From NCBI RefSeq assembly GCF_028548475.1, contig NZ_JAQQLE010000011.1:62001-126000 (forward strand): a stretch of 64,000 bases of DNA, given 5' to 3'. The number at the start of each line of letters is the position of its first letter. The first letter of the stretch is position 1. The notes beneath the pieces were generated by a model. It did not search any database. It saw only the letters and a program-made list of their open reading frames with translations, and was not told the DNA's origin. Shown here piece by piece: positions 1,556-62,400 of the stretch. The stretch comes from Vogesella margarita (GTDB lineage: Bacteria; Pseudomonadota; Gammaproteobacteria; Burkholderiales; Chromobacteriaceae). The position numbers and the translations under genes were made by a program.

Positions 1556-1574
1556 GCGGCCAACGTTGGCCGCA
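1556..1574. repeat. TTGGCCGCA element, full palindrome
   Basis: GCGGCCAACGTTGGCCGC is an 18-bp perfect palindrome at 1556-1573, with A1574 completing the TTGGCCGCA core on the plus strand. It sits directly beyond the T-tract of the terminator of the binding-protein gene at 1632-2747. The same order (hairpin, T-tract, palindrome) recurs at 6008-6049. Confidence 0.9.
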
Positions 1575-1601
1575 AAAAAAGCCCCGTCCTTGAACGGGGC
1601 T
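1574..1601 (-). terminator. Intrinsic terminator of the LivK-like gene
   Basis: AGCCCCGT and ACGGGGCT (1580-1601) form a strong stem. On the minus strand it is followed by seven T residues (1580-1574). It lies 31 bases after the stop codon of the binding-protein gene. Confidence 0.85.
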
Positions 1602-1631
1602 AAAACTGACCATCAGGAGGAAGGGGGTCGT

Positions 1632-2747
1632 TCAATAAGTCACTTTGATGGGAGCCCACTTTGCCTGCTTGACCTGATACACCGTGATCGGCGCTTTCAC
1701 CAGGTCGCCCTTGGCATCGAAGCGGTAGGTCGCATTCACGCCTTCGTAGGTCATTTTCTTGAGTGCGGCTTTGACTTTCACCGGATCGATCGTATTCGCT
1801 TGCTGCATGGCGGTTGCCGCCAGCATCACCGCATCATAGTGCTGCGGACCATACGACAGCGGCAGCTTGCCGTACTTCTGCTGGTAGCGCTTCATGAACT
1901 CGACACCTTGCGGACGGCTTTCCAGCACGTTACCGGCCACCGCGGCCATGAAGCCTTCGCCATTCCTGCCCGACAACTTGATGAAGGTATCCGTCTGGAT
2001 CATGTCGCCACTGAGTACCTTGGTAGACAGTCCGAGTTGCTTCATTTGCAAGGCAAACGGGGCCGCCTGGCTGTCGGAAACGGCGACAAAGACCAGATCC
2101 GGCTTCGCAGCCTTGATGGCGGTCACAATCGGACTGAGGTTGTTCTGGCCGGGCGTGGTGTATTCACGACGCACCACCTGCCCGCCCAAGCGCTTGATTT
2201 CGGCGTCAAACTTGTCCGCCAGGCCCTGGCTGTAAGCGGTGCGGTCGTCCACGATGGCGATACGCCTGGTTTTCAGCTCATTGAGTGCGTATTGCGCGAT
2301 AGCCGGCCCCATCCGGGTATCGATCGCACTCAGGCGGAAAGCGTTGTCATAGCCCAGGCTGGTGTACGTGGCATTCACCGCCACCGAGAATTGCGGCACG
2401 CCGGCCTGATTGATGATGCGGGACGCCGGAATGGTGGTGCCGGAGACGAACGGGCCCACCACTGCATTGACGCCATCATCGATGAGGCGCTGCGCAGCCA
2501 GGGTGGATTGTTTCGGATCTTCCTGGTCGTCCTGCGAAACCAGCGTGAACTGCACCGCTTTGCCATTGATCTTGATCCCCTTGCTGTTCAGGGTCTCGAT
2601 CGCCAGCTGGGCACAGTTTTGATTGTCCTTGCCCCAGTGGGCGTCGGGGCCGGTCAACGGGCCGATAAAGCCGATCTTGACGACATCGGCCGCATTGGCA
2701 CCGCCAGCGGCAAGGGCGAGTAAAGTCCACAGCAAAGTACGTTTCAT
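1632..2747 (-). CDS. Branched-chain amino acid-type ABC transporter substrate-binding protein
   Basis: This is a periplasmic type I solute-binding protein of the LivK/LivJ family, 371 residues from the chosen start. A signal peptide (MKRTLLWTLLALAAGGANA) ends at an AxA site near residue 19. The mature part begins VVKIGFIGPLTGPDAHWGKD, typical of the family, and carries GPFVSGTTIPASRI and YGPQHYDAVMLAATAM. A longer frame to 2783 exists, but the start at 2747 gives a clean signal peptide and an AGGACA ribosome binding site. No permease or ATPase genes are adjacent, so it must share a transporter encoded elsewhere. Its place next to a D-amino-acid dehydrogenase and a ketimine reductase suggests an amino acid ligand. 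Confidence 0.85.
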   Translation of the reverse strand: MKRTLLWTLLALAAGGANAADVVKIGFIGPLTGPDAHWGKDNQNCAQLAIETLNSKGIKINGKAVQFTLVSQDDQEDPKQSTLAAQRLIDDGVNAVVGPFVSGTTIPASRIINQAGVPQFSVAVNATYTSLGYDNAFRLSAIDTRMGPAIAQYALNELKTRRIAIVDDRTAYSQGLADKFDAEIKRLGGQVVRREYTTPGQNNLSPIVTAIKAAKPDLVFVAVSDSQAAPFALQMKQLGLSTKVLSGDMIQTDTFIKLSGRNGEGFMAAVAGNVLESRPQGVEFMKRYQQKYGKLPLSYGPQHYDAVMLAATAMQQANTIDPVKVKAALKKMTYEGVNATYRFDAKGDLVKAPITVYQVKQAKWAPIKVTY

Positions 2748-2792
2748 GATGAGTGTCCTGACAAAGGGAATTGAACGGGGCATAGCAACGAC

Positions 2793-6007: not shown

Positions 6008-6027
6008 TGCGGCCAACGTTGGCCGCA
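6008..6027. repeat. TTGGCCGCA element, full palindrome
   Basis: TGCGGCCAACGTTGGCCGCA is a perfect 20-bp palindrome carrying the core on both strands. It lies between the converging FadR-type regulator and oxygenase genes, just beyond the T-tract of the oxygenase terminator. Confidence 0.92.
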
Positions 6028-6079: not shown

Positions 6080-6709
6080 TCACCACGGCATGTTGCCGCC
6101 GCGGCGGCGGTACCAGCCGGTGACCGACAGCCGCTGCTGCCGTGCCGGCAGCACCTCGTGCCAGAAGCGGTCGGACAGGAACAGCACCAGCGTACCGGCC
6201 TCCGGCTCGACGTCGACGAACTCGCGGCAGTCGGCGTCCAGGTACAGGCGGATCTGGCCGCCGGCGTCCTGCGGCCAACCCTCGTTCAGATAGAACACCG
6301 TGCTCAGCGTGCGCGCGTCGTCGTCCTGGAAACGGTCGAGATGCTTCTTGTAGAACGCGCCCTCCGGGTACACCGCGAAGTGCGACTCCAGCTCGACAAG
6401 GCCGAGGTAGAGGCCGCGATTGACCGCCTGCATGATCTCGTCCATCGCCGCGTTGTAGGCCTGTACCGCTGGCAGCGCCGCCACCTGGTCCAGCCACAGC
6501 ACCGAGTCGGAGCGGATCTCGGCACGGCGTGCCTGGCCGTCGGCACGGCCGGTGGCGGCCTCGTGGAACAGGCCCTGCTGCCACACGTCGAGGCAGGCGG
6601 TGCGCAGGTTGGTGGTAATGGCGGCGGGCAGCGCGTCGGGGATCACCACCCAGCCCTCGCGGGCGAGGGTGTCGATGACGTGGTCGAGGTCGAATTGCAG
6701 TCGGGACAT
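6080..6709 (-). CDS. 2-oxoglutarate/Fe(II)-dependent oxygenase, prolyl-hydroxylase-like
   Basis: This 209-residue protein has the double-stranded beta-helix signature of the SM-20/prolyl-4-hydroxylase group. The HxD...H iron triad is visible as H123 and D125 (KKHLDRFQDD) and H184 (RFWHEVLP), with R193 (QQRLSVTGWYRRR) in place to bind 2-oxoglutarate. YPEGAFYKKHLDRF and LNEGWPQDAGGQIRLY are typical of bacterial predicted proline hydroxylases. I start at MSRLQF, since the upstream 26 residues of the longer frame look unlike protein. The ribosome binding site is weak. The substrate is unknown; ribosomal or elongation-factor prolines are possible by family analogy. Confidence 0.82.
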   Translation of the reverse strand: MSRLQFDLDHVIDTLAREGWVVIPDALPAAITTNLRTACLDVWQQGLFHEAATGRADGQARRAEIRSDSVLWLDQVAALPAVQAYNAAMDEIMQAVNRGLYLGLVELESHFAVYPEGAFYKKHLDRFQDDDARTLSTVFYLNEGWPQDAGGQIRLYLDADCREFVDVEPEAGTLVLFLSDRFWHEVLPARQQRLSVTGWYRRRGGNMPW

Positions 6710-6960: not shown

Positions 6961-8205
6961 ATGCCCTTTTCCACCCTCGGCCTTGACCCGGCGCTGCTGC
7001 ACGCGCTGGACGAACAGGGCTTCCACACCGCCACCGCCATCCAGCGCGAGGCGATTCCGGCGATCCTGCACGGCCGCGACCTGCTGGCCACCGCCCGCAC
7101 CGGCTCCGGCAAGACCGCCGCCTACTGCCTGCCGCTGCTGCAGCGCTGGCAGCACGGCCGCCATGACGGCAAGCAGCCGACGCTGCTGGTGCTGCTGCCG
7201 ACGCGCGAGCTGGCGCAACAGGTCGGCACGGTGCTGCAGCAGCTGGCCCGCCACCTGCCGCCGCCGAAGATCGTCACCGTCTACGGCGGGGTATCGCTCA
7301 ATCCGCAGCTGATGGCGCTGCGCGGCGGTGCCGACATCATCGTCGCCACCCCCGGCCGGCTGCTGGAGCTGCTGGCCAACAACGCGCTGAACTTGGGCAG
7401 CGTGCGCACCCTGGTGCTGGACGAGGCCGACCGCCTGCTGGAACAGGGCTTTGCCGACGAGCTGGAGCAGGTGCTGGCCACGCTGCCGGCACAGCGCCAG
7501 ACGCTGCTGTTCTCCGCTACCTTTGCGGCCAACGTGCAGCAGCTGGCAACCAAGCTGCTCACCGACGCGCAGCGCATCCACATCGCGGAACAGGCGCCGG
7601 ACATCCGCCAGCGCGCGATCGAGGTCGATAGCCGTCAGCGCACCGCGCTGCTGTGCCGGCTGATCGCCGAGCAGGACGGCGCGCGCATGCTGGTCTTCGT
7701 CGCCAGCAAACAGGGCGCCAGCGAACTGGCGCAGACACTGCAGCGCGAGGGCATCCGTGCCGCCGCGCTGTTCGGCGAGCTGGCGCAAGGCCGCCGCGAA
7801 CGGGTGCTGGCCAACCTGAAGGACGGCACGCTGCAGGTGATCGTCGCCACCGACCTCGCCGCGCGCGGCATCGACATTCCGGCGCTACCGGTGGTGATCA
7901 ACTACGACCTGCCGCGCTCGCCGCAGGACTACACCCACCGCATCGGCCGCACCGGCCGCGCCGGCGAAAGCGGCCTCGCCATCAGCCTGATCGACGCCGA
8001 CAGCCGCGCCCACTTCCGCCTGATCGAGAAGCGTCTGCAGCTGACACTGCCACGCGAGCAGCTGGCCGGCTTCATCCCCACCGACCAGCCCTCGCCAAGG
8101 TTGGCCGCAGCCGACGACAACGGCGGCATCAAGGGCAAGCGCCCGAGCAAGAAGGACAAGCTGCGCGCCGCCGCAGCCGCCGCTCAGGCCGCCAAACCGG
8201 ACTGA
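6961..8205 (+). CDS. DEAD-box ATP-dependent RNA helicase, RhlE-like
   Basis: This 414-residue protein unwinds RNA duplexes with ATP, usually in ribosome assembly or RNA decay. Motifs appear in order: Q-motif region GFHTATAIQREAIP, motif I ARTGSGKT (45-52; R replaces the more common Q), Ia PTRELAQQ (80-87), DEAD (154-157), SAT (185-187), ARGIDIP (301-307) and HRIGRTGR (326-333). The C-terminal tail is Lys/Ala-rich, as in RhlE proteins. No ribosome binding site is obvious before the ATG. An exact TTGGCCGCA element (8097-8109) encodes RLAA in the tail, and a partial one (7524-7536) lies in the motif III region. Confidence 0.93.
   Translation: MPFSTLGLDPALLHALDEQGFHTATAIQREAIPAILHGRDLLATARTGSGKTAAYCLPLLQRWQHGRHDGKQPTLLVLLPTRELAQQVGTVLQQLARHLPPPKIVTVYGGVSLNPQLMALRGGADIIVATPGRLLELLANNALNLGSVRTLVLDEADRLLEQGFADELEQVLATLPAQRQTLLFSATFAANVQQLATKLLTDAQRIHIAEQAPDIRQRAIEVDSRQRTALLCRLIAEQDGARMLVFVASKQGASELAQTLQREGIRAAALFGELAQGRRERVLANLKDGTLQVIVATDLAARGIDIPALPVVINYDLPRSPQDYTHRIGRTGRAGESGLAISLIDADSRAHFRLIEKRLQLTLPREQLAGFIPTDQPSPRLAAADDNGGIKGKRPSKKDKLRAAAAAAQAAKPD
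8097..8109 (+). repeat. TTGGCCGCA element inside the helicase gene
   Basis: An exact AAGGTTGGCCGCA copy is read as part of the codons AGG-TTG-GCC-GCA (Arg-Leu-Ala-Ala) in the poorly conserved tail of the helicase. AGG and TTG are uncommon in the surrounding genes. Confidence 0.85.
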
Positions 8206-9302: not shown

Positions 9303-9324
9303 CTGCGGCCAACGTTGGCCGCAG
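9303..9324. repeat. TTGGCCGCA element, extended palindrome
   Basis: A 22-bp perfect palindrome, centred on AACGTT at 9311-9316, lies between the TetR gene stop (9332) and the start of rlmF. It carries the TTGGCCGCA core on both strands and is 8 bases beyond the TetR stop codon. Confidence 0.92.
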
Positions 9325-10476: not shown

Positions 10477-10490
10477 TGCGGCCAACCTTG
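10477..10490 (-). repeat. TTGGCCGCA element, single copy
   Basis: An exact TGCGGCCAACCTT copy begins six bases after the stop of the HPP gene, between it and the converging GlxA-like gene. No second arm is present. Confidence 0.85.
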
Positions 10491-12174: not shown

Positions 12175-12636
12175 TCAGAAAGTCTGGCGGTACACCACAA
12201 AGCCGGTGTCGCGCGCCACGCGGTCGTACAGCTGGCGCGCCGTGCTGTTGTCGTGCCGGGTATGCCAGTACAGGCTGGGGCTGCCGGCTGCGCGGGCCTC
12301 TCCGGCGACCGCCGCGATCAGCCTGCGTGCCACGCCCCTGCCCCGTGCCTCGGGCACGGTAAACAGGTCCTGCAGATAGCAGGCGTGGTGCGGCATCAGC
12401 GTGTTGCGGTGAAAGACATAGTGCGCCAGGCCCAGCAGCTGCGTGCCCTGCCACGCCAGCAGCGCGTGGACCGGCTCGGCCGGGTCGAGAAAACGCTGCC
12501 AGGTGAGCCGGCTGATGGCCGGCGGCAGCGCGCTGTCGCCGTGGCGGCCGTAAAAGGCGTTGTAGGCGTCCCATAGCGGCAGCCAGGCGTCAAAATCGTC
12601 CGCACCGGGCGGACGCAGGATGAGGTCGGTTTCCAT
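12175..12636 (-). CDS. GNAT-family N-acetyltransferase
   Basis: This 153-residue protein transfers an acetyl group from acetyl-CoA to an unknown amine. The acetyl-CoA pyrophosphate loop is VPEARGRGVARRLI (about residues 93-106), preceded by the beta-4 strand CYLQDLFTV and followed by SLYWHTRHDNSTARQLYDRVARDTGFVVY. I start at METDLI (12636). The only ribosome binding site is AAGG, eight bases upstream, and it is supplied by an exact TTGGCCGCA element at 12636-12648. The gene follows EamA by 10 bases and is probably cotranscribed with it. Confidence 0.88.
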   Translation of the reverse strand: METDLILRPPGADDFDAWLPLWDAYNAFYGRHGDSALPPAISRLTWQRFLDPAEPVHALLAWQGTQLLGLAHYVFHRNTLMPHHACYLQDLFTVPEARGRGVARRLIAAVAGEARAAGSPSLYWHTRHDNSTARQLYDRVARDTGFVVYRQTF

Positions 12637-12648
12637 GCGGCCAACCTT
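12636..12648 (-). repeat. TTGGCCGCA element overlapping a start codon and providing the ribosome binding site
   Basis: An exact AAGGTTGGCCGCA (minus strand) fills the gap between the EamA stop codon and the GNAT ATG. Its first four bases, AAGG, stand eight bases before the ATG and act as the likely Shine-Dalgarno sequence; its last A is the first base of the ATG. Confidence 0.85.
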
Positions 12649-13540
12649 ACGCCGGCTGCGGCTTGCGCAGCAAGGCCAGCAGCCGCGCGCCGAACACGTT
12701 GACCGCGAGCCCGGCCAGCAGCACGCCGCCACCGGCCAACTGCCAGAAGCTCAGCCGCTCGCCCAGCACCAGCGCCGCCGACAGCACGCCGAAGAACGGC
12801 ACCAGCAGCGAGAACGGCGCCACCACGTTGGCCGCATGGCGGCTTAGCAGCTTGCTCCACTGGCCGTAGCCGAACAGGGTGGCGATCAGCGCCAGATAGG
12901 CGATGGCGAACAGGCTCTTGCCGCTGAACACCTGAGCCCACACGATGCGGTCGGCCTCGAACAGCGCCGACAGCGCGAAGAAGGGCACGATGGGGATCAG
13001 GCTGCTCCACACCACCAGCCCCAGCATGTCCGGCTTGAAGCCGGCGGCGACGATGCGGCGCACCACCACATTGGACAGCGCCCAGCTGGCGGCACCGCAA
13101 AGCGTCAGCACGAAGCCCAGCAGCGGCAGCCCCTCAGCACCGAGGCCACCGATCAGGTACAGCCCGGCGCTGCCGATCACGAGGCCGGCCAGCTGCCAGG
13201 CGGTGAACGATTCCTTCAGCCACAGCATCGCGATCAAGAGCGTGAAGAAGGCCTGCGACTGCAGCACGATGGAGGCAAGGCCCGCCGGCATGCCCAGCTT
13301 GATGGCGGTGAACAGGCAGGCGAACTGGCCGAGGCCGACCGACAGCCCGTACAGCGCCAGCCAGCGCCACGGGATATTGGGACGGCGCACGAACAAGAGG
13401 CCGATGCCCGCCGCCGCAGCAAAGCGCAGCCCGCCGAGCAGGAACGGTGGCACGCCGGCCACGCCCCACTTGATCACCACGAAATTGAAGCCCCACACCG
13501 CGACGATGGCGAGGGCGATCAGTCGGTCTTGCCAGTTCAT
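12647..13540 (-). CDS. EamA/DMT-superfamily transporter
   Basis: This 297-residue inner-membrane protein has about ten hydrophobic segments in two EamA repeats (AIVAVWGFNFVVIKWG at the start of the first, LCGAASWALSNVVVRR at the start of the second). SVGLGQFACLFTAIKLG and FGYGQWSKLLSRHAANVVAPFSLLVPFFGVLSA resemble EamA, the O-acetylserine/cysteine exporter of E. coli. A good AGGAG ribosome binding site precedes the start. A small-metabolite efflux role is likely, the substrate uncertain. Confidence 0.88.
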   Translation of the reverse strand: MNWQDRLIALAIVAVWGFNFVVIKWGVAGVPPFLLGGLRFAAAAGIGLLFVRRPNIPWRWLALYGLSVGLGQFACLFTAIKLGMPAGLASIVLQSQAFFTLLIAMLWLKESFTAWQLAGLVIGSAGLYLIGGLGAEGLPLLGFVLTLCGAASWALSNVVVRRIVAAGFKPDMLGLVVWSSLIPIVPFFALSALFEADRIVWAQVFSGKSLFAIAYLALIATLFGYGQWSKLLSRHAANVVAPFSLLVPFFGVLSAALVLGERLSFWQLAGGGVLLAGLAVNVFGARLLALLRKPQPA

Positions 13541-14495: not shown

Positions 14496-14514
14496 TGCGG
14501 CCAACCTTGGCCGC
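14496..14514. repeat. TTGGCCGCA element, near-palindrome
   Basis: TGCGGCCAACCTTGGCCGC contains an exact minus-strand 13-mer (14496-14508) and an 8-base mirror half. It lies in the divergent region between the isochorismatase-like and DUF411 genes. Confidence 0.88.
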
Positions 14515-15189: not shown

Positions 15190-15209
15190 TGCGGCCAAGG
15201 TTGGCCGCA
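15190..15209. repeat. TTGGCCGCA element, near-palindrome
   Basis: TGCGGCCAAGGTTGGCCGCA includes an exact plus-strand 13-mer (15197-15209). It lies 7 bases beyond the fumarase stop, between two converging genes, next to the terminator. Confidence 0.9.
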
Positions 15210-25511: not shown

Positions 25512-26873
<1,362 letters not shown>

Positions 26874-30819: not shown

Positions 30820-30837
30820 CCAACCAGAACATCAAGC

Positions 30838-33227: not shown

Positions 33228-33247
33228 GGCCTTGCAGGAGTGGGAAG

Positions 33248-44440: not shown

Positions 44441-45123
44441 AGCTCGGCCTTTCTGACGCCAGCGGCGTAGTGACGACCCAGCCACGCCAGCAGCAGGGTG
44501 GATACCGTGGTGATGGCGAGGTAGATCGCCGCCGCCACCAGGCTGAAGAAGAACAGCTGCAGCGAGCTCTTGCCGGCGTCCTGGGTGGCTTTCACCACGT
44601 CGGACAGCCCGATGATGGACACCAGCGCGGTGGCCTTGATCATCACCTGCCAGTTATTGCCGATGCCGGGCAGCGCGAAGCGCATCATCTGCGGGAACAG
44701 CACGCGGCGGAACACCTGCCATGGCGTCATGCCGTAGGCCACGGCGGCCTCAAGCTGGCCGCGCGGCACCGCCTGGAACGCGCCGCGGAAGGTCTCGGTG
44801 AAGTAGGCGCCGTAGATGATGCCCAGCGTCACCACCCCGGCCACGAACGGGTCGATGTCGATCTGCGCCAGCCCGGCCCAGTCGGTGAGGTGGTTCAGCG
44901 CGATCTGCAGGCTGTAGAACAGCAGCAGCATGGTGACCAGATCCGGCACGCTGCGGATCAGCGTGGTATAGCCTGCGGCCAACGTTTGCAGCAGGCGGCT
45001 GGCCGACAGCCGCGCGCTGGCACCAAGCAGGCCCAGCAGCAGCGCCGCCGCCAGTGCCAGCAGCGCCAGCTGCAGCGTCATCCAGGTGCCGCTGGCGATC
45101 AGCGGCCCATAGCCTTGTAACAT
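44437..45123 (-). CDS. Polar amino acid ABC transporter permease (HisQ-like)
   Basis: This 228-residue partner permease carries the EAA loop (VPRGQLEAAVAYGMTPWQVFRRVLFPQMMRFALPGIGNNW) and about five membrane segments. An AAGGAG ribosome binding site precedes the ATG. It contains an in-frame near copy of the dispersed element (44974-44986, encoding QTLAA). It follows the binding-protein gene by 48 bases. Confidence 0.93.
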   Translation of the reverse strand: MLQGYGPLIASGTWMTLQLALLALAAALLLGLLGASARLSASRLLQTLAAGYTTLIRSVPDLVTMLLLFYSLQIALNHLTDWAGLAQIDIDPFVAGVVTLGIIYGAYFTETFRGAFQAVPRGQLEAAVAYGMTPWQVFRRVLFPQMMRFALPGIGNNWQVMIKATALVSIIGLSDVVKATQDAGKSSLQLFFFSLVAAAIYLAITTVSTLLLAWLGRHYAAGVRKAEL

Positions 45124-45984: not shown

Positions 45985-46024
45985 TGCGGCCAACCTTGCT
46001 CTTGCTGTTGCTTTGGGTTGGCCG
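45985..46024. repeat. TTGGCCGCA elements, decayed inverted pair
   Basis: An exact minus-strand copy (45985-45997) faces a degenerate GGTTGGCCG (46016-46024); the 9-bp arms are separated by a T-rich 20-base loop. It lies between the MFS stop and the HisJ-like gene. Confidence 0.75.
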
Positions 46025-49141: not shown

Positions 49142-50863
49142 TCAACCGCGTGCCAGCGCCGCCTGGGTGATGGTGGTCAGCGTGGCGCGGGTGCTGATGA
49201 TGTCAGGCGGCAGGCGGATTTCCAGCAGCGTGCCGCTCTCGCGCGCCAGTGCGCGTTCCAGCGCGGCGTCGAACTCGTCGTTGCTGGCGATGCGCTCGGC
49301 GGCGTAGCCGTAGGCAGCGGCCAGCTGGCAGAAGTCCGGATTACCCAGCTGGGTGCCGCTGATGCGGTTGGGGTACTCGCGCTCCTGGTGCATGCGGATG
49401 GTGCCGTACACGCCGTTGTTGAGCAGCAGGATGATGGATTTGCCGCCGTGCTGCAGCGCGGTGGCCAGCTCCTGGCCGTTCATCAGGAAGTCGCCGTCGC
49501 CGGCGATGGTGAAGGCGGTGCGGCCGGTGGCGAGGTTGGCCGCAATGCCGGCCGGCACGCCGTAGCCCATGGCGCCGTTGGTGGGCGCCAGCTGGGTTTT
49601 GTGACCTTTCACCACGCCGTGGTACTGGAAGTAGCGGTGAATCCAGCTGGCGAAGTTGCCGGCGCCGTTGGTGATGACCGCGTCGGCCGGCAGCTGGCGC
49701 TGCAGGCTGGCAATCACGCGCGGCAGGTCGATGTCACCGCTGATGCCTTCGCTCAGCCCGGCCAGGCGCTGCGGCACCAGGTTGGCGCGGTAGTCGGCGT
49801 TCAGCTGCCGGCTCCAGGCCTGCCAGCGCGGAGCGGCGGCAGGTGCCGGCAAGGCGGCCAGCGCCTGTGCGGCAGCGTTGACACCGGACTGGATCGCCAC
49901 ATCGGCCTGGTACACGCGGTCCAGCTCGTCGCCCTGCGGCAGGATGTGCACCAGTTGCTGCTGGCTGCGCGGCGCCTGCAGCAGGGTGTAGCCGCCAGTA
50001 GTCATCTCGCCCAGCCGGGCACCGATGGCGATGATCAGGTCGCTGTTGCGGATGTTGGCCGCCAGCGCCGGGTTGATGCCGATGCCGACGTCGCCGGCAT
50101 ACAGCGGGTGATGGTTGTCGAAGGTGTCCTGAAAGCGGAAGGCGTTGCCCACCGGCAGCTGCCAGCGCTCGGCAAAGGCTTGCAGCGCGGCGGCGCCTGC
50201 GGCGTCCCAGCCGCTGCCACCGGCGATCAGCAGCGGGCGCTCTGCCTTCTCTAGCAGTTGCTGCAAGGCGGAAATGCCGGCCGGATCCGGGAACGGCGTT
50301 ACCGCCTCCACCCGCGGCAGCGGCGCCAGGCTGTCGGCCACCGGCTGCACCAGCATGTCTTCCGGCAACACCAGCACCACCGGGCCGGGACGGCCGTTCA
50401 TGGCGGTGGCGAAGGCGCGGCTGATGTATTCCGGGATGCGGTTGGCGTCGTCGATGCGCTCCACGCGCTTGGCCATGCCCTTGGTGGACGGGCCGAAGTA
50501 CACGCTGTAGTCCATTTCCTGGAAGGCTTCGCGGTCGCGGCAATCGCTGCCCACGTCGCCCACCAGCAGCACCATGGGGGTGGAATCCTGGAACGCGGTA
50601 TGCACGCCGATGCTGGCGTTGGTGGCGCCGGGGCCACGCGTGACCAGGCACACGCCGGGGCGGCGCGTGAGCTTGCCGTGCGCCTCGGCCATGAAGGCGG
50701 CGCCGCCTTCGTTACGGCAGGCGATAAAGCGGATCTGCTCGCGGCTGCGATAGAAGCCGTCCAGTACCGCCAGGTAGCTTTCGCCCGGTACGCCAAAGGC
50801 GATGTCCACACCCTGTGCCACCAGGCACTCCACCAGTAGATGCCCTGCCAACTTGCTGTTCAT
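49142..50863 (-). CDS. Thiamine diphosphate-dependent enzyme, acetolactate-synthase-like
   Basis: This 573-residue protein has the three ThDP-family domains: an N-terminal Pyr domain with the catalytic Glu52 (IACRNEGGAAFMAEAHGKLT), a central domain, and a C-terminal PP domain with the ThDP-Mg motif GDGDFLMNGQELATALQHGG, ending in LLLNN (about residues 450-475). The region after the glutamate differs from that of IlvB, and no small regulatory subunit gene is adjacent, so biosynthetic acetolactate synthase is unlikely. A 2-oxoacid decarboxylase or catabolic lyase is more plausible. Upstream is the D-2-hydroxyglutarate dehydrogenase gene on the same strand; AAGGGG precedes the ATG. Confidence 0.8.
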   Translation of the reverse strand: MNSKLAGHLLVECLVAQGVDIAFGVPGESYLAVLDGFYRSREQIRFIACRNEGGAAFMAEAHGKLTRRPGVCLVTRGPGATNASIGVHTAFQDSTPMVLLVGDVGSDCRDREAFQEMDYSVYFGPSTKGMAKRVERIDDANRIPEYISRAFATAMNGRPGPVVLVLPEDMLVQPVADSLAPLPRVEAVTPFPDPAGISALQQLLEKAERPLLIAGGSGWDAAGAAALQAFAERWQLPVGNAFRFQDTFDNHHPLYAGDVGIGINPALAANIRNSDLIIAIGARLGEMTTGGYTLLQAPRSQQQLVHILPQGDELDRVYQADVAIQSGVNAAAQALAALPAPAAAPRWQAWSRQLNADYRANLVPQRLAGLSEGISGDIDLPRVIASLQRQLPADAVITNGAGNFASWIHRYFQYHGVVKGHKTQLAPTNGAMGYGVPAGIAANLATGRTAFTIAGDGDFLMNGQELATALQHGGKSIILLLNNGVYGTIRMHQEREYPNRISGTQLGNPDFCQLAAAYGYAAERIASNDEFDAALERALARESGTLLEIRLPPDIISTRATLTTITQAALARG

Positions 50864-50896: not shown

Positions 50897-50914
50897 TGCG
50901 GCCAACGTTGGCGG
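50897..50914. repeat. TTGGCCGCA element, variant palindrome
   Basis: TGCGGCCAACGTTGGCGG keeps an exact TGCGGCCAACGTT half on one side while the mirror half has decayed to GGCGG. It lies 34 bases upstream of the ThDP-enzyme start codon. Confidence 0.7.
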
Positions 50915-51046: not shown

Positions 51047-54000
51047 TCAGGCCGCCGGCGTCAAAGCCCTCAACAACGCACTGGCCGGATGCGGCAGCGC
51101 CACGTCGTCCATCAGCGCCACCTGGCAGCGGCAGGAGTAGCCGGTAGCCAGCAGCGGGCTGTCGTCGCCCTGGCCGGCCACGATGCCTTGCCAGCTCTGA
51201 CGATAGATGGTTTCCGACAATGCACGCTTGTCGGCCTCGTGGCCGAAGGTGCCGGCCATGCCGCAGCAGCCGCTGGCGAGGGTGGCCAGGTTCAGGCCGC
51301 AGGCGGCAAACACCTTTTGCCAGTCGCCCACCGCCGCCGGGGCGTTGGTCTTTTCGGTGCAGTGCGGCAGCAGGGTGAAGCTTGCGCCGGCGGCAGCGCG
51401 CACGTCGGCTGGCAGTTCGGTCAGTCGGCTGGCCAGCCATTCCTGCAGCAGCTGTACCTTGGGCAACTCACCTGCCAGTGCCAGCTTGGCGTATTCGCTG
51501 CGGTAGGTCAGCGTCATCGACGGGTCGATGCCCACCAGTGGCAGGCCGCTGGCCGCCAGCTGTTGCAGGCTGGCCACGTTGGCCGCAGCCACTTTTTCGA
51601 AGCGGGCGAGGAAGCCATGCACGTGCAGCGGCTTGCCGTTGGCGCGGAACGGCGCCAGCAGCGGCACAAAGCCCAGTCGTTGCAGCAGCGCGCACACGTC
51701 CAGCACCAGCGGCGTTTCGAAGTAGCTGGTAAACGCATCCTGCACCACGATCACCGCGCGGGCGAGCTCCGCCGCCGGCAAGGCCGCCAGCGCCTTTGCA
51801 CTGGCCACCGCCACACCGCGGCGCGCCAGCTCGGCCTGCAGGTTGATGCCGGACAGTAGCGGGCTTTCCACCAGATTCAGCTTGCGCAGCAGCATGCGGC
51901 CAACCTTGCTGCCGATCACGCCGTTGTACAGCCACGGCAGGCGTGCGGCCAGCGGCAGCGTATGTTCCAGCCCGCCGATCAGGTAGTCCTTGAGCGGGCG
52001 CAAGTAACGGCCGTAATACAGCTCCAGAAACTTGGCGCGGAAGCTTGGCACGTCCACTTTCACCGGGCACTGGCCAACGCAGGATTTGCACGCCAGGCAG
52101 CCGTCCATTGCCTCTTTCACCTCGTGCGAGAAGTCGGTCTCGCCACGGCGCTTGCCCAGGGTGTTGGCGATGCGTGCCGGCAGGCCGGCAACAAAGCCGC
52201 GCGCACGCAGGGCACGGCTGGCGCTCACCGGGTCACTGCCCTGATCGGCCAGCTGGCGCAACCATTCGCGCAGCAGCGAGGCGCGGCCTTTCGGTGAATG
52301 GCGCCGCTCGCGGGTGCCTTTCCACGACGGGCACATGGCGTCGTCGGGGTCGAAGTTGTAGCAGGCACCGTTGCCGTTGCAGTGCAGTGCCTCGTCGTAG
52401 TGCTGGCGCACGGCGATGGGGATGGTGCGGTCCAGCTGGCCACGGGTGGTCACGCCATCCACCTTCCACAGCCCGTCCGGCGTCGGCGCGGCGATCTTGC
52501 CCGGGTTGAGCTGGTTGTACGGGTCGAACGCAGCCTTGATCTGCTGCAGCCGCGGGTACAGCGGGCCGAAGAAGGCCGGCGCGTACTCGGAGCGCACGCC
52601 CTTGCCGTGCTCGCCCCACAGCAGGCCGTGGTATTTCCGGGTGAGCGCCACCACGCCATCGGTGATGCTGCGCACCAGGCCTTCCTGCGCCTGGTCTTTC
52701 ATGTCGATGGCCGGGCGCACGTGCAGCACGCCGGCATCCACGTGGCCGAACATGCCGTAGCGCACGCCGTGGCTGTCCAGCAGCGCGCGGAATTCGGCGA
52801 TGTAGTCGGCCAGGTTTTCCGGTGGCACCGCGGTGTCTTCCACAAACGGGATCGGCCGGCGGCTGTCGTTGACGTTGCCGAGCAGGCCCACCGATTTCTT
52901 GCGCATGCCCCAGATGCGGCCAACCGCGGCGCCGCGTGCCACGGTGTGGCCCTGGCGACCATGGCTGTCGCCCTCGGCGCTCAGCTGCGCGCCGATATCC
53001 GCCAGCGTGGCTTCCAATGCGGCATCGCTGTCAGCGAGGAACTCCACCAGGTTGATGCCCTGTGCCGGGGTGGCGTCGTCCGGAAAGAATTCGCGCACGC
53101 CGTGCCACACGATGTCCTGCCGTGCCAGGTTCAGCACCGTGGAATCCACCGTTTCGATGGAAGCGGCACCCAGCTGCATCAGCGCCGGCGCGTCGCGCAG
53201 CGCGGCATCGAAGCTGGCATAGCGCACGTTCACCAGCGCGCTGGCTTTCGGGATCGGCAGCACGTTCAGCCTGGCCTCGACGATGAAGCCCAGCGTGCCT
53301 TCCGAACCGCACAGGATGTTGTTGAGGTTGAAGCGGCCGGCGTCGTCGCGGATGTGCGCCAGGTCATAGCCGGTGAGGCAGCGGTTGAGCTTGGGAAACT
53401 TGTCGGCGATCAGCGCCGCGTCGTCGCGCTGGATGTCGTCCAGCAGGCGGTGTACCGCGCCAACGCGGTCGTCGCGGCGGCTGATGGCGGCAAACTCGGC
53501 CTCGTCCAGCGGCGCGGAGTGCCACAGCGTGCCATCCAGCAGCACGGTGTCCAGTTCCAGCACGTGGTCGCGGGTCTTGCCGTACAGGCAGGAGCCCTGG
53601 CCGCTGGCATCGGTGTTGATCATGCCGCCGATGGTCGCCCGGTTGGAGGTGGACAGCTCCGGCGCAAAGAACAGCCCGTGCGCCTTCAGCGCGGCATTGA
53701 GCTGGTCTTTCACCACGCCGCCCTGTACCCGCACCCAGCGCTCTGCGGCGTTGATTTCCAGGATGCGGTTCATGTGACGCGAGATGTCCACGATCACGCC
53801 GTGGCCCAGCGACTGGCCGTTGGTGCCGGTGCCGCCGCCGCGGGCGTTCAGGCTCAGCCCCTGAAAGCGCGGCTCGCCGGCCAGGCGGGCGATGCGGATT
53901 ACGTCGTCGTTATCGCGCGGGAACACCACCAGCTGCGGCAGCACCTGGTAGATGGAGTTGTCGGTGGACAGCACGGTCCGGTCGGCATAAGCGTGGCTGA

Positions 54001-54107: not shown

Positions 54108-54120
54108 AAGGTTGGCCGCA
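54108..54120 (+). repeat. TTGGCCGCA element, single copy before the YdiJ-type start
   Basis: An exact AAGGTTGGCCGCA stands 16 bases upstream of the start codon, next to the terminator of the HglS-like gene. Confidence 0.85.
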
Positions 54121-56360: not shown

Positions 56361-59264
56361 TCAGCCGCAGGCGCCGACGTGGCCGCAGGCGGTGCAGAAT
56401 TCGCAACCGTCCTTCTTGATCAGCGCGCGGTTGCCGCATTCCGGGCAGGCCTTGCCGGCCATCTGTGCCGGTGCAACGCTCACCACTGCGCTTTCGAACA
56501 GGTCGCCCTGCTCCGGCACCATCACGCCCATTTCCTCCACCGGCACACCTTCCTCGCTGAGGATGCCCAGCATCGCGTAGCGGTGGATCACCAGTCGCGC
56601 GAGATACGCTTCGGTGGACGGCCAGCTCTGCGACTTGTCGCTGCCCGGCGTGCGGGCAAAGAAGTCCGCCTGCGGCTCGGCATAGCTCAGCAGCTTGCGC
56701 AGCTTCATGCCGATCCACGCCGGATCGATCACCCGCATGTCGAGGCTGAGCATCTTGCACAGGCCGTCCAGCTCGCGCGGGTAGTGGCCCGCCAGCCACA
56801 GCGAGTACGGGCGGCGCTGGCCGTTGGGCAGCACCAGCTCCTTCACGAACAGCACGAAATCGTCGCCGGTCTGCGGGTTGTTCACGTCCACCGACCAGCT
56901 GATGGTGCCGTCGGTGCCGGATTTCGGCTCCTTGCGGGCAAACAGCGCGTCCATCACCGGGGTGGCGTCGCCTGCGGCCAAGGTCAGCGCGCCCAGCTGC
57001 TCGACGCGGTACTTCACCACCCGGCCGAGCGCAGCGGCGGCGGCGCTGCTGCCCACCGGACTCGTGTTCTGCTCGGCGCCCAGTTCGACACGATAGTGAC
57101 GGTCGCCGCGGGTGGCGGCCAGCGCGTCCAGCTTGGCGGCCAGCCAGGCGCGGTCGCGGCAGCGCATGTCCATGGACAGCGTCTTGGCAATCGCCCCCAG
57201 GCCGCGCGGCACGTCGCCGTTGACCCAGCACTCGAACGGCAGCGGTGCCTCGCCCGGCTGCTGGCCGTCGATATGGCCGACCATTACCGCGAAATCGCCC
57301 TCCTCGCCTTCCACCATGAAGGTCCACGACGGGTTGCCTTGCTTGAGCTTGGGACGATGCGGCCACTTCAGGCTGGCCAGCGCCGGGCTGGGTGCGGTGT
57401 TCAGGGTGATGCGGCGGTCCGGGTCGTTCTGGTTGCCCAAGTCCTGTGGCAGCTGCTGGCTGCCCGTGCTGCCAGCGGCAGGGTTGGCCGCAGGCGTTGG
57501 CTCAATCGACAATACCGAGCCCAGCACGCTGTTGGGGCGGTAGGTGGTGATGCCCTTCAACCCGGCGCGCCAGGCTTCCAGGTACAGCGTCTCGAAATCG
57601 GCAAACGGATAATCGGCCGGCACGTTCACGGTCTTGGAGATCGCGGTATCCACGTACGGTGCCACCGCCGCCACCATGCGCATGTGGTCCAGCGCGCTCA
57701 TCTGCAGCGCGCTGACGAAGTAATCCGGCAGCGCATTGGTATCGCCGCCCTGCATGCGGTACACGCGGTAGGCATGGTCTTCCACCAGGTATTCCTGCTG
57801 CGTGCCGTCGGCCATGCGCTTCTTGCGGGTGTAGTACCAGCTGAACGGCGGCTCGATGCCGTTGGAAGCGTTGTCGGCGAAGGCCAGCGAAATGGTGCCA
57901 GTCGGCGCGATGGACAGCAGGTGCGAGTTGCGGATGCCGTGCTTCTTGATGCGCGCCTTGATCTTGTCCGGCAGGCGGCTGGCGCAGTGTGGTGCCGCCA
58001 GGTACTTGTCGGCATCGAACAGCGGGAAGGCGCCCTTCTCGATGGCCAGATCCACCGACGCATCGTAGGCGGCATCGCGCATGTGCTCGGAGATGCTGGC
58101 GGCCAACCTGCGGCCCTCTTCGCTGTCGTAGCGCACCTTGAGCATGATCAGCGCATCGCCGAGGCCGGTGAAGCCCAGGCCAACGCGGCGCTTGTTCTGC
58201 GCCTCGCGCTGCTGTTCCTTCAGCGGCCACACGGTGAGGTCCAGCACGTTGTCCAGCATGCGGATCGAGGTGCGCACCACCTTCTCGAAGGCCTTGAAAT
58301 CGAAGCTCGGCGCCTCGCCGAACGGCTGGCGCACGAACTTGCACAGATTGATGGAGCCCAGGTCGCAGCAGCCGTAGTCCGGCAGCGGCTGTTCGCCGCA
58401 GGGGTTGGTGGACTCGATCACCTCGCAGTACGACAGGTTGTTGTCGGCGTTGATCTTGCTCATGAACAGCACGCCAGGCTCGGCGTGGTCATAAGTAGAG
58501 TGCATGATCTGCTGCCACAGCTCGCGGGCGCGCACGGTGCGATACACCCACAGCCCGTCGCCGCGCTGGTAGCTACCGGGGAAGGCGTCGGACGCCGGCG
58601 CCACCGCGTGGGTCAGCTCCCAGTCGCCATCGCTATCCACCGCCTGCATGAAGGCGTCGGACACGCCGACCGAGATATTGAAGTTGGCCAGGTCGCCCTG
58701 GTCCTTGGCGTGGATGAAGGCCTCGATGTCCGGGTGGCTCACGTCCAGCACGCCCATCTGCGCGCCGCGACGCGCGCCGGCGGACTCCACCGTCTCGCAG
58801 CTGCGGTCGAACACGCGCATATACGATACCGGCCCCGAAGCGCGGCTGTTGGTGCCCTTCACCCGTGCGCCCTTGGGGCGGATGCGGCTGAAGTTGTAGC
58901 CGACGCCACCGCCGCGGCGCATGGTCTCGGCCGATTGCAGCAGCGCCTCGTAGATGCCGACCTTGCCGTTCTCGGCCTCGGACACCGCATCGCCCACCGG
59001 CTGCACGAAGCAGTTGATCAGCGTGGCCTTGAGGTCGGTGCCGGCAGCGGAGTTGATGCGGCCACCGGGAATAAAACCGCCGTCCAGCGCCTCGAAGAAC
59101 AGCGGGGCAAAGCGTTGCGGCTCCTGCTCCTGCTCGGCCAGCGCCTGCGCCACGCGCTGGCGCACTTCGCTGACCGACTGTTCGCCGTTTTTCGCGTATT
59201 TTTCCAGCAATACCTCGCGCGAAATATCCTGTTCCGCAAACGCTACGCTCTTGTCCCGGTTCAT
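56361..59264 (-). CDS. nrdJ: Adenosylcobalamin-dependent (class II) ribonucleotide reductase
   Basis: This 967-residue enzyme reduces ribonucleotides to deoxyribonucleotides using adenosylcobalamin, independent of oxygen. The N-terminal two thirds is the catalytic barrel: [70 protein letters not shown] (the conserved NPCGEQ loop) and [32 protein letters not shown]. The last third contains two repeats seen in long NrdJ proteins and a C-terminal zinc ribbon ([28 protein letters not shown]). A pair of candidate NrdR boxes lies upstream. B12 supply is needed; no cobalamin gene or riboswitch is seen here. Confidence 0.95.
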
Positions 59265-59270: not shown

Positions 59271-59315
59271 CCCGCTATATGTGGTGTAAAAAATATGGAA
59301 TCTAACTATATATAG
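59271..59315. promoter_or_regulatory. Candidate pair of NrdR boxes upstream of nrdJ
   Basis: CTATATATAG (59306-59315) matches the centre of the NrdR box exactly, and CTATATGTGG (59275-59284), within CCGCTATATGTGGTGT, matches it with two changes. They are 31 bp apart centre to centre, the usual NrdR spacing. The proximal box is only about 10 bases from the ATG. Confidence 0.65.
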
Positions 59316-59415
59316 CGGTTCTTGACCTTGATGGCCATCAAAGTCTCACCGCAACGGCTCAGTCTGCCGCCAGTACGGCCGTCGTGCAACAGCTACAACA
59401 CAGCGCCCCAAACGC

Positions 59416-59448
59416 TTGCGGCCAACCTTGTGACAAGGTTGGCCGCAA
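59416..59448. repeat. TTGGCCGCA elements, inverted pair forming a 15-bp stem
   Basis: Exact copies at 59417-59429 (minus) and 59435-59447 (plus) make perfect 15-bp arms around TGA. The pair lies 16 bases after the stop of the DUF748 gene, in the place of a terminator; only a GTTTG follows on the minus strand. Confidence 0.92.
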
Positions 59449-59464
59449 ACGGAAAAGCCCGGTC

Positions 59465-62400
59465 TTATTTCAGCTTCAGCAGCAGCGGCACGCCGTCCTT
59501 GTCGGCCTTGACCTTGTCGGCCTCCAGCACGCTGATGCGCGATTCCAGCTCCGGTTTCGCCGCCAGCAGCAGCTGTCGCGCCGCGTTGCCGCGCGCGGTG
59601 GCCAGCGCCCGCAAGTCCGCATCGTCGATCTTCTGCGCCGCCAGCAGTTCGGCACGCATCGCCTGCGCGCGCTCGGCGGTGTCCTTCTCGGTGGCGACGC
59701 GCTTGAGCCAGGCGAAACGGCCGAACTGCTGCGCGTAGCCATCGCCCACCGCCTTGCGGATCGCCGGATCGCCCATGTCCGGCAGCGGCAGCGGCTCGTC
59801 CGCCTGCAGCCGGTAGGCGGCGCGTTTCAGGATGTCGCTGTCGACGCGGTAGCGGGCGAGCTCGCGGCTGTCCTGCTCGGCGTCATAGCCGCCGCCGATC
59901 GCCAGCGCGAGCTTCGGCCGCTTGGCCATCAAGTCGGCCAGCTTGCCCAGCTTCTCGCGTTCCGGCGGCGGGATGCGATCGTCACCGGCATCGGCGTAGA
60001 TCTCGTCGAAGCCCTCGCCGCCGAACAGCGCACGGAACGGCGCCGTCACCACCTTCACCAGGATGTTGCGCAATGCCTGCCACACCAGGTGGCCGTAGGA
60101 GAAGTCCGGCGCATCCAGGCTACCCGCTACCGGCAGCGCGAGGTCGATGCGGCCGTCGCTGTCTTCCAGCAGCGCCACCGCGAGGCGCAGCGGCAGGCGG
60201 GTGCCGTCGTAGTCGGCGACTTCCTCGCCCAGCCGGATATGGTCGATCACCACGCGGTTGTCGCCGTTGAGCTGGCGATCCTTCAGCAGGTAACGCAGCT
60301 CGGTCGTCAGGCGGCCGTCGGTGATCTGCCAGCCGGCAAAGGTCATCGAGTACGGGTTGAGGCTGCCCAGCGGGATGTTGCGGAAGTTCAGCGCCATGTC
60401 GAGGTCATTGGTCACCGCCAACGGCGACAGCGCGCCGCGGATGCGCACGTCACCGAACTGGTCGACGCGGCCGTCCAGCGTCACCGTGCCGCGCCGCCCC
60501 GGACGACTGGACAGGCCGAGTACGGTACCGGACAGCGAATGAATGCGGGTAGCGAAGCTGGGCTGCAAGCCCAGATCGGCAAAGTCCATACGCGCGTTAC
60601 GCACGCGCACGGCGCGCACGTCTACCACCGGCACACCACCGGCCTTGCCTGCCGCCGCCGGCCTGGCAGGCTGCATGCTCGCCGGCTGCGGCTTCATCAG
60701 GTGCGCAAAATTGGGCACCCGTTTTTCGTCCAGGATCAGCCGCAGCTGCGGCGACACCAGCCGCACGTCGGCAATGCTCACCCGCTCCGGCTGCGCCTTG
60801 ATGCCGGACACCGCCAGCTGCTGCCAGCCCAGCAGCGGCTCGCGCCGGCCCGGTTCATACAATGCCAGCCTGTCCAGCTGCGCCTTGCCGTCGGCCTGCC
60901 AACGGCTGCCATTCAGCGCAAACCCCAGATCGGCCGACAGCTCGCCACCGCCGAAGCGCAGCACGGTCTGCGCCAGCGCGTACGGCGCCAGCTCGCGCAG
61001 CGGCAGGCGGCTGGCCTGCACGCGGCCGCTGATGTCCTGCAAGTTGGCCGCAGCCTTGGCATCCAGCTGCAGCTTGCCCTGCCCCATCGCCGCCGCCAGC
61101 TGCACGGCGAAGCCCTGCTGCGGATCGCCGCTGACGCTGACGCCGACATCCTGCAGCGTCACGCTCACCGGCTGGCTGATGCCGGCATCGCGCCAGCTGA
61201 CACTGCCGCCCGCCAGTGTCAGCTGCGGGTAGCGGATCTGCCAGGCTTGGCCGCCGCTTGCGGCGACCGGTGCGGCAGGGGTGACGGCTGGCCGCTGGCG
61301 CAGCGCCTCGGCGATATCCAGCTTGCCGTCCTTGCCGCGGTTCAGCGCCAGCTGCAGTCCCGTCAGCGTCACGTTGCCCGGCGTGATGCGATGCTTGCCC
61401 AGATCCAGCTCGCTGCTGGCCAGCTGCACACCGGCCAGGGTGGCGAACGGGGGCCGCTCGCCACTGGCGGCGATGAGCTGCGACAGCGCCAGCGTGGCCC
61501 CCTGCACCTTCACCCCGCCCCCGGCGTCGACGGCAACGGCGGCCTGCAGGCTGTCCAGCTTCAGGCTGGCGGACAGCGGCGCAACAAAGCCCTGGTGCGT
61601 GGCGCGCAGCTGCCAGTTGTCGACGCGGATAGCCGGCAGGCTCACCGTCCAGCCCTGCTCCGGCTTGGCTGGAGCGGGTTTGCCCGGAGCTGACTTGGTC
61701 GTCGCGATGGTTTTCACGCCGCTCATCGCTGCCGGTGGCGGCAAGGCCGCCAGCCAGTCCGGCTGCCCCTGCGGATCGAGCACGGTGTCCAGCTCGCCGC
61801 CGGCGAGGCTGAGTTTGCCCACGCTCAGCCGACGGCCGGCGAGGTCGAACTCGCCACCACCCAATGCAAGCTGGCCGAGCCTGAAGCGGCTAGCACTGCC
61901 CGGCGCGCTCACCACCAGCCCCGCAAGGTTGGCCGCAACGCCCTTGGCCGACAGCCGCACCGTCTTGCCGGCCAGATCGAAGTGGTAGGGCAGGCTAACG
62001 CTGAGCTTGCCCTGCGGCGGCGCCAGCCTGAGATGCGGCTGCACGTACGGCCACACGCTAGCCAGGGTCAGGCCGGTCACGTTCAGTACCCCGTCCGACT
62101 GCAGCGGTTGCAGCAGCAGGCTGCCCTGCCAGTCCAGCCGGGTGCCGTCGTCCAGCTCGGCGGCGAGTCGGTAATGGCCCTGGTTATTGGGCAGCGTGGA
62201 CAGGTTTTTCAGCTGGAAATCCAGAGGCAGCACCTGGCGCTGCACGTCGCCGGCCAGCCGGTCGTGCAGCAGCAACTGGCCCTTGTTCAGCGCCAGCTGC
62301 GTCAGCAGCAGCTTGGGCGGATCACGCTCGCCCTCGTCCGGCGCGGTGTCCGGGCCGGCGGCGTCATGCAGCAGCCGTGTCCAGTTCCACTCGCCCTGCG

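Follow-up and report, generated by a model that had tools for sequence, protein, structure and literature searches.

What maintains a 13-base word that recurs on both strands of a stretch of Vogesella margarita DNA? We addressed this question in the window, the whole stretch of 64,000 nucleotides that was analysed, in further sequence of the same genome, and in related genomes. The preliminary description had seen in this word, AAGGTTGGCCGCA, the hallmarks of a DNA uptake sequence; from the sequence evidence below, we propose with a probability of about 0.86 that it is a Chromobacteriaceae (Neisseriales; Vogesella) DNA uptake sequence read by a ComP-type pilin.

Abundance and Form of the Motif

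The exact 13-mer occurred 951 times in the genome (466 + 485) compared with 0 + 0 for its reversed, non-complemented control, and the 10-mer core, GTTGGCCGCA, occurred 2,044 times compared with 4 for the reversed control. In a 464-kb sample (the window plus C1:1-400000), 131 copies of the 13-mer and 284 of the core were found, whereas an order-3 Markov model predicted 0.04 and 3.0. Within the window, 51 matches with up to two mismatches were obtained (2.5 expected), and none of 100 shuffles reached this number. All 18 exact copies listed previously exist, although one of them starts at 51895 rather than 51896, and the variant AACGTTGGCCGCA, given as about 11 copies, is present exactly 11 times. 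The window contained 43 cores in all, one with a 5' end too divergent for the 13-mer search, so 42 are tabulated (table 1).

The full motif has the form (C)AAGGTTGGCCGCA(A/G). Single-base variants of the core were approximately at background, the exceptions being G or C at position 10 and C at position 1. In the sequence logo of the 284 core copies, information dropped to at most 0.12 bits beyond positions -4 to +11; thus, no flanking homology lengthens the repeat. Counts far over random and homology confined to these limits are the reverse of what the preliminary description had named as contrary evidence.

Table 1. Motif copies, palindromes and inverted pairs in the window
Feature	Position	Strand	Basis and remarks
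AACGTTGGCCGCA copy	1562..1574	+	window motif search; near-palindrome with 1555-1567 (-)
20-bp palindrome TGCGGCCAACGTTGGCCGCA of two abutting core copies	6008..6027	.	window motif search
Core copy, variant 5' end	6270..6282	-	window motif search
Core copy, variant 5' end	7524..7536	-	window motif search
Exact AAGGTTGGCCGCA	8097..8109	+	window motif search
20-bp palindrome, two core copies	9304..9323	.	window motif search
Exact AAGGTTGGCCGCA	10477..10489	-	window motif search
Exact AAGGTTGGCCGCA	12636..12648	-	window motif search
Core copy, variant 5' end	12824..12836	+	window motif search
Exact AAGGTTGGCCGCA	14496..14508	-	window motif search
Exact AAGGTTGGCCGCA	15197..15209	+	window motif search; near-palindrome with 15190-15202 (-)
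Exact AAGGTTGGCCGCA	19350..19362	-	window motif search
AACGTTGGCCGCA copy	21580..21592	-	window motif search
20-bp palindrome, two core copies	25458..25477	.	motif search and folding; moderate fold, z -2.4
Core copy, variant 5' end	26272..26284	+	window motif search
Exact AAGGTTGGCCGCA	27286..27298	+	window motif search
AACGTTGGCCGCA copy	28954..28966	-	window motif search
Inverted pair, exact copies (+ 33250, - 33266)	33250..33278	.	hairpin -29.5 kcal/mol, z -6.4; without T run
Core copy, variant 5' end	34653..34665	-	window motif search
Exact AAGGTTGGCCGCA	34899..34911	+	window motif search
Inverted pair, exact copies	40081..40116	.	terminator-like hairpin with T run; -32.9 kcal/mol, z -6.4
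Core copy, variant 5' end	42786..42798	+	window motif search
AACGTTGGCCGCA copy	44974..44986	-	window motif search
Exact AAGGTTGGCCGCA	45985..45997	-	window motif search
Core copy, variant 5' end	46519..46531	+	window motif search
Core copy, variant 5' end	49532..49544	+	window motif search
AACGTTGGCCGCA copy	50897..50909	-	window motif search
Core copy, variant 5' end	51575..51587	+	window motif search
Exact AAGGTTGGCCGCA	51895..51907	-	window motif search
Core copy, variant 5' end	52915..52927	-	window motif search
Exact AAGGTTGGCCGCA	54108..54120	+	window motif search
Core copy, variant 5' end	57480..57492	+	window motif search
Inverted pair, exact copies (- 59417, + 59435)	59417..59447	.	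hairpin -36.0 kcal/mol, z -6.1
Core copy, variant 5' end	61040..61052	+	window motif search
Exact AAGGTTGGCCGCA	61925..61937	+	window motif search
Core copy, variant 5' end	63623..63635	+	window motif search

Arrangement and Conservation of the Copies

The copies in C1:1-400000 were spaced more evenly than at random (CV 0.77 vs. 0.99; none of 500 simulations as even) and were balanced between the strands (121/120); in the window, the CV was 0.74 compared with 0.97 at random, and 4.6% of simulations were as even. Neighbours no more than 30 bp apart were all inverted, 24 of 24 in C1:1-400000 and 6 of 6 in the window. The three inverted pairs folded with z scores of -6.1 to -6.4, and the single palindrome folded gave -2.4. 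The hairpin starting at 33250 sits just downstream of gene 33283-34857 (-), the one at 40081 comes after the chemoreceptor gene 38175-40061 (+), and the one at 59417 lies downstream of gene 59465-62770 (-; gene call made in the present analysis), which bears out the earlier description of inverted repeats at gene ends. A terminator scan covered two pairs and called one of them, with a T run, terminator-like. As had been described, copies lie in both coding and intergenic DNA: intergenic DNA is enriched in them, yet 158 of the 241 copies in C1:1-400000 are intragenic according to our own gene caller, and termination is therefore not the main role.

Intergenic copies are conserved islands amid diverged DNA, being intact at 18/21, 15/17 and 16/17 sites in G004, G005 and G011, respectively, compared with 21-23% of flanking intergenic 10-mers. 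For coding copies the excess was only moderate (18/25, 16/19 and 13/18 vs. 62, 54 and 53% in the flanks). The differences between species were substitutions, position 10 accounting for 14 of the 24 mismatched bases, and 2 sites in 117 comparisons were gapped. A first orthologue comparison, superseded by these figures, gave 22/30 intact motif copies and 9/14 for a shuffled-word control. Depletion in foreign DNA was weak only: six low-GC 5-kb windows held a mean of 1.2 copies, the 86 others a mean of 3.2. A flagellin region, not clearly foreign, makes up the longest motif-free stretch of C1.

Dialects and the ComP Homologue

We surveyed 61 genomes of the family, comprising 13 of Vogesella and 48 others. 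The core occurred 1,871-2,895 times in all 13 Vogesella genomes and at most 58 times in each of the 48 others. Other Chromobacteriaceae genera have dialect words of their own, GTTGGCCGAA and GTTGGCCGAG; the sister-genus dialects share the constant block GTTGGCCG and end in -AA in eight genomes (2168 copies in G014, 579 in G023, 1245 in G016, 1851 in G021, 1104 in G013, 893 in G022, 183 in G029 and 1368 in G017) or in -AG in two (1940 in G024 and 1590 in G015), and all three dialects (-CA, -AA, -AG) have CCG at the core. Thirty-eight of the 61 genomes were without any of the three dialects, and the word is absent from several genera and from most of genus g6. A scan of motif-less genera for an alternative uptake word (80 kb each of G030, G035 and G019, and a combined 80 kb of G033 and G028) returned some enriched words, but all fell well short of the enrichment that the motif shows in motif-bearing samples.

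The ComP-like minor pilin that had been suggested as a check is encoded in V. margarita at C1:11036-11470, outside the window, with a secretin gene nearby. In a PDB search with E up to 10, its soluble part matched ComP chains only (2nba, 2m3k and 5hz7; E 1.8e-10, for 2nba, to 5.6e-6), and its Pfam ComP_DUS match had E 1.2e-12. PF16732 was rejected as a specific ComP marker, as it matches all 61 genomes, PilE-like pilins among them; ComEC was likewise uninformative as a discriminator, being found in V. margarita and 59 of the 61 genomes, but not in Vogesella G002 (330 contigs) and G008 (88% complete). The signature N[TVA]Dx[GD], which was picked after viewing the sequences and in genomes that are not independent events, was present in ComP of 22 of the 23 genomes with the motif and in none of the 25 examined from the 38 without it. 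The exception was Paludibacterium G021 (80% complete, 7% contaminated), with 1,851 copies. A ComP-like gene inside a pilin operon is retained in motif-less G030, G062, G035 and G032. On a tree of 42 ComPs, those of the -CA dialect formed one clade (support 100/99), the -AG clade was modestly supported (83/86), and the -AA ComPs, with 4 changes, were not one clade; all four labels required 4 changes, compared with a minimum of 3 and a shuffled mean of 19.6. comP adjoins aroB-aroK-pilQ at the three Vogesella loci compared and forms part of a minor pilin operon at most other loci. Taken together, the genus-wide watermark, dialects, inverted pairs, even spacing, conservation and ComP homologue give the uptake-sequence reading good support.

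Known Uptake Systems, Alternatives and Meaning

According to the available text of PMC3630211, neisserial DUS are 10-12-mers of about 900 to 6,000 copies, with eight dialects that all have CTG at +6 to +8. The Vogesella motif resembles them in word length and copy range, lineage dialects, the encoded ComP-type pilin, and inverted pairs with a terminator-like hairpin (40081..40116), but it has CCG where DUS has CTG and a pair form with two cores abutting in a palindrome; at +10, where DUS has A, the dialects are divided, -CA and -AA having A and -AG another base. The sister-genus 12-mer AGGTTGGCCGAA agreed with the neisserial simDUS AGGCTGCCTGAA at 9 of 12 positions, on the same strand with zero offset, a score that random or shuffled 12-mers reached against six dialects in about 0.7-0.9% of cases. 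An in-register likeness to CTG-core DUS is possible, and the earlier statement that the motif is unrelated to them is doubtful. The Vogesella 12-mer AGGTTGGCCGCA reached 8/12, by itself no proof because 5-7% of random or shuffled 12-mers match equally. The USS of Pasteurellaceae is likewise a genome-wide uptake word, with word and family unrelated to the Vogesella motif. Its receptor is said, in the available text, to remain unknown, with ComN predicted (PMC12616744). None of the core words was found as a whole word in the literature searched, and Table S1D of PMC3630211, on over-represented 10-mers of Pseudogulbenkiania and others, may already include one that went unrecognised; 9-mers of the motif appeared alongside "uptake sequence" only incidentally (in a primer and a gene sequence from Neisseria), and the matches listed for natural transformation in Vogesella or these genera included no relevant paper by title.

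If ComP reads the motif, type IV pili would display the minor pilin binding the core in free DNA, retraction would deliver the bound fragment to PilQ, the secretin, and one strand would be carried inward by ComEC. More frequent uptake and recombination of tagged fragments would let copies build up, by point substitutions as well as gene conversion, to the point of saturating the genome, and the dialects of other genera would likewise be maintained by a pilin of the ComP type. The analysis shows that the motif is enriched and conserved, occurs in dialects and as inverted pairs, and goes with a pilin homologous to ComP; motif binding, preferred uptake and the receptor role of ComP are inferred.

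The reader of an uptake sequence might instead be another minor pilin, such as the FimT-like pilin whose gene lies directly upstream of comP, which we consider unlikely. DNA binding is known for FimT pilins of other bacteria. In Vogesella, the FimT-like gene (10530-11042 of L001; weak Pfam GspH match, E 0.00037) overlaps comP (11036-11470); at 9 of the 12 other loci compared, a homologue of that gene neighbours comP or shares its pilin operon, none being called at those of G006, G024 and G021. Neisserial ComP has two disulphides delimiting the DNA-binding DD region (available text of PMC4906244), whereas the soluble part of the family orthologues has two cysteines in 40 of 42 and three in 2 of 42, with four in none, so that Vogesella ComP is without the second disulphide. 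Against another pilin as reader, the ComP residues go with the presence of the motif, and ComP is already described as the sequence-specific DUS receptor in the sister family Neisseriaceae (available text of PMC3868556 and PMC4906244).

A site for a nucleoid-associated, chromosome-segregation or termination protein, with no uptake role, appears more improbable still: thousands of conserved sites and strong gene-end hairpins for the pairs folded would fit it, but the strands are balanced over 400 kb of constant GC-skew sign, and the word varies by genus and is missing from part of the family. KOPS and Chi are strand-biased, unlike the Vogesella motif, and a segregation motif of this type was rejected on direct counting, which gave both strands alike. 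Inverted pairs and 20-bp palindromes recall REP-like elements or another family of mobile repeats; this was rejected on the sharp limits of the logo at -4 and +11 and the substitution pattern, and even spacing with many single copies inside genes also argues against it, leaving it next to no probability. Equally negligible is an excess of sites retained as targets of a restriction-modification system or an orphan methylase: the motif includes GGCC, yet genomes usually avoid such targets and do not amplify them, and a preference over 10-14 bases with a relaxed last base is unlike a methylase site.

In the available text of PMC3630211, no obvious DUS is reported in five Chromobacteriaceae genomes (Laribacter, Lutiella, Pseudogulbenkiania and two Chromobacterium), and the origin of DUS is placed after the split from C. 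violaceum. An uptake sequence read by ComP in this family would bear on that view and on CTG as the fixed core (PMC3630211). We see an even chance that ComP-guided uptake predates Neisseriaceae, such that the ancestor of Neisseriaceae and Chromobacteriaceae was tagged, CTG is not universal, CCG working in this family, the second disulphide is unneeded, and tag and receptor signature were lost at least two times. If so, the losses would be a natural experiment on which ComP residues read which bases, and the residues setting DUS specificity were called an open question in 2016 (available text of PMC4906244). With three dialects, a genus in which some genomes have the motif and others lack it, and an identifiable ComP, this further family would provide comparative material for DUS specificity. 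To our knowledge, few families have been described as having uptake sequences, namely Neisseriaceae and Pasteurellaceae. Vogesella and Gulbenkiania are mostly environmental, and the system could therefore be studied outside human pathogens.

Copy number, geometry and conservation of the motif

The 18 exact copies of the uptake-sequence-like 13-mer AAGGTTGGCCGCA that the preliminary description had reported for the window were recovered by count, and matches with up to two mismatches numbered 51 there, compared with 2.5 expected. The proposed excess was upheld genome-wide, with 951 exact copies on both strands of the 3.33-Mb, 26-contig assembly (G000) and 0 for the reversed control. The essential unit of the motif is the 10-mer core GTTGGCCGCA, which occurred 284 times in 464 kb of G000 (3.0 expected) and 2,044 times in the whole genome (4 for its reversed control). 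The core logo showed a 5' extension (C)AAG and a weak 3' purine, with at most 0.12 bits beyond these; one-base core variants were near or below expectation, except G (37) and C (22) at position 10, compared with approximately 6 expected, and C at position 1 (13 versus 3). The complete AAG prefix preceded 47% of cores in G000 and 21% in G001, its frequency being variable within Vogesella.

In C1:1-400000, a stretch of one G000 contig with GC skew of one sign throughout, the 241 cores were divided 121 to 120 between the strands. According to our own simple gene caller, 158 of these lay in genes (22 of 43 in the window), and core density per kb was 1.96 in intergenic and 0.44 in genic DNA (1.72 and 0.42 in the window). 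Antisense genic copies in C1 shared a single reading phase in 66 of 80 cases, and sense copies used mainly two (44 and 27 of 78). Spacing was more even than random both in C1 (CV 0.77 versus 0.99; 0 of 500 simulations equally even) and in the window (0.74 versus 0.97; 4.6% of simulations). Neighboring copies no more than 30 bp apart were always inverted (24/24 in C1, 6/6 in the window), forming either a short-loop hairpin (three folded, z -6.1 to -6.4) or a palindrome of 20 bp in which two cores abut (the single one folded, z -2.4). Terminator-like sites in the scanned stretch numbered 13, compared with 8.6 expected.

We compared 104 kb around the window with G004, G005, and G011, which are 91-94% identical where aligned. 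Intergenic cores were intact at 18/21, 15/17, and 16/17 sites, respectively, compared with 21-23% of flanking intergenic 10-mers. Coding cores were intact at 18/25, 16/19, and 13/18 sites, and 10-mers of the flanking coding DNA in 62%, 54%, and 53% of cases; the contrast with the flanks is weaker for coding copies. Position 10 accounted for 14 of the 24 mismatched core bases, and a gap was involved in only 2 of 117 site comparisons. Short sites under maintenance show such a pattern, and inserted elements do not. Motif-free stretches and other repeats were also observed (see table), and the low-GC stretch of the window is perhaps acquired DNA.

Coordinates of motif pairs, motif-free stretches, other repeats, and the ComP-like pilin
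Feature	Coordinates	Observation
Inverted pair	window 40081-40116	T run present; called terminator-like
Inverted pair	window 33250-33278	not called terminator-like by the terminator scan
Low-GC stretch	window 28954-33252	GC 52%; no core copies between these points
M11-type peptidase gene	window 28855-30732	in the low-GC stretch
641-aa ORF	window 30838-32763 (-)	in the low-GC stretch; no Pfam match
Longest motif-free stretch in sample	G000:C1:88937-101217	12.3 kb; GC 57%; surrounds a flagellin-like gene (named by eye)
Repeat family, loci L035-L036	G015:C5:1-40000	dominates the 40-kb sample; words including TATCCGGCAGTG occur 48 times; unrelated to the motif
Tandem-like CTCTGT and CTGGGC repeats, loci L039-L040	G030:C1:1000001-1040000	words in 26-35 copies
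ComP-like pilin	G000:C1:11036-11470	overlaps a FimT-like pilin gene

Dialects and taxonomic range

The motif in a strict terminator form, two-sided and with dialects permitted, was searched for in one genome from each of 84,980 species; this search is insensitive and may omit the window's own genome. All 26 stretches obtained belonged to Vogesella (four named species), Gulbenkiania mobilis, Paludibacterium denitrificans, strains JH1-16 and L13, and two MAGs labelled Neisseriaceae; an 8-kb locus of V. alkaliphila was 100% identical within G004, which identifies G004 as that species. The genome of the window shares its genus with G004 and therefore belongs to Vogesella, in the family Chromobacteriaceae. 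The named loci carried -CA in seven Vogesella-type sets (the four species, L13, and both MAGs) and -AA in JH1-16, Paludibacterium, and Gulbenkiania, and this insensitive scan of 84,980 species gave no stretch with -AG.

Among 61 Chromobacteriaceae genomes, a dialect was present in 23 and absent from 38. The -CA core GTTGGCCGCA occurred in 1,871-2,895 copies in 13/13 Vogesella genomes and at most 58 in the 48 others. The -AA core GTTGGCCGAA was abundant in eight genomes (G014, 2168; G021, 1851; G017, 1368; G016, 1245; G013, 1104; G022, 893; G023, 579; G029, 183), with at most 78 copies in the remaining 53, and the -AG core GTTGGCCGAG in two (G024, 1940; G015, 1590), the third-highest count being 165 in G023. 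The weakest carrier, G029, was 84% complete. Genus g6 was divided, with a dialect in G017 and none in nine others, one of them 61% complete. Intermediate -AA plus -AG counts were observed in G023 (579+165), G029 (183+55), G027 (62+92), and G036 (45+85), which suggests decaying or mixed watermarks. Outside the family, 291 genomes sampled from 50 further families belonging to the order each held at most 221 copies of GTTGGCCGMR, compared with at least 1,304 in the five motif-bearing genomes that the sample included; some out-of-family genomes exceeded their own reversed control several-fold at this low level (e.g., G288, 139 versus 31).

A ComP-like pilin and its association with the motif

PF16732 was dropped as a ComP identifier, being too broad. 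The soluble part of the G000 pilin matched only three PDB entries at E up to 10, all ComP (2nba, 1.8e-10; 2m3k, 4.3e-7; 5hz7, 5.6e-6), and that of the PilE-like pilin best matched PilE (4noa, 1.7e-4). In G000, G001, and G006, comP neighbors dehydroquinate synthase, shikimate kinase, and PilQ-type secretin genes. The ComP-like gene was the last of a minor pilin operon with polA on one side in G013, G014, G016, G017, G030, G062, and G035 (Pfam-checked in G014 and G030, named by eye in the rest), and the last of a pilin operon with different neighbors in view in G024 and G032. The locus is thus common to motif-bearing and motif-less genomes.

The pattern N[TVA]Dx[GD], picked after the sequences were seen, was present in ComP of 22/23 motif-bearing genomes (exception G021) and in 0/25 motif-less genomes examined of 38, six of these 25 giving another kind of pilin as best match; this association tallies genomes rather than independent events, and independent contrasts are few. 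In G021, putative Paludibacterium denitrificans with 1,851 motif copies, two ComP-like pilins lie side by side (L123), both without the NTDxG signature. In a tree of 42 ComP sequences, midpoint-rooted for drawing, -CA (100/99) and -AG (83/86) each formed a single clade, and -AA was not a clade (4 changes); motif-less rows had long stems and required 2 changes, perhaps reflecting two losses, and G021 and some other rows were on long branches with unsure placement. Residues splitting -CA from -AA/-AG ComPs include Y98, T118, and T120 (G000 numbering, from the G preceding the prepilin cleavage site).

Relation to neisserial uptake sequences

In all eight neisserial DUS dialects described in PMC3630211, positions +6 to +8 read CTG and position +10 is A. 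In the same register our motif reads G-TTGG-CCG-(A/C)(A/G), with CCG replacing CTG; it is therefore classed apart from the known dialects, not as a further one. In the literature searched (one paper collection), the core strings had no match as words, and their 9-mers occurred only incidentally inside longer published sequences. The -AA 12-mer was identical to the simDUS dialect at 9/12 positions and the -CA 12-mer at 8/12, levels attained by 0.7-0.9% and 5-7%, respectively, of random or shuffled 12-mers (six of eight dialects, both strands, nine offsets). According to PMC3630211, five genomes from Laribacter, Lutiella, Pseudogulbenkiania, and Chromobacterium showed no obvious DUS and BLAST retrieved no ComP from C. 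violaceum; that paper places the origin of DUS after the split from C. violaceum. Neisserial ComP is described in PMC4906244 as having a DD region with two disulphides; because the soluble part of our ComPs has two (40/42) or three (2/42) cysteines, this two-disulphide region is missing from them. A common origin of the motif and DUS is plausible, though not proven, because of the 12-mer likeness and the ComP homology. Enrichment of the motif, its limits among the genomes searched, its dialects, geometry, and conservation, and the ComP homology with its motif association are established, and from these sequences we predict that the motif works like DUS, with binding by ComP, preferential uptake, and competence of Vogesella strains.
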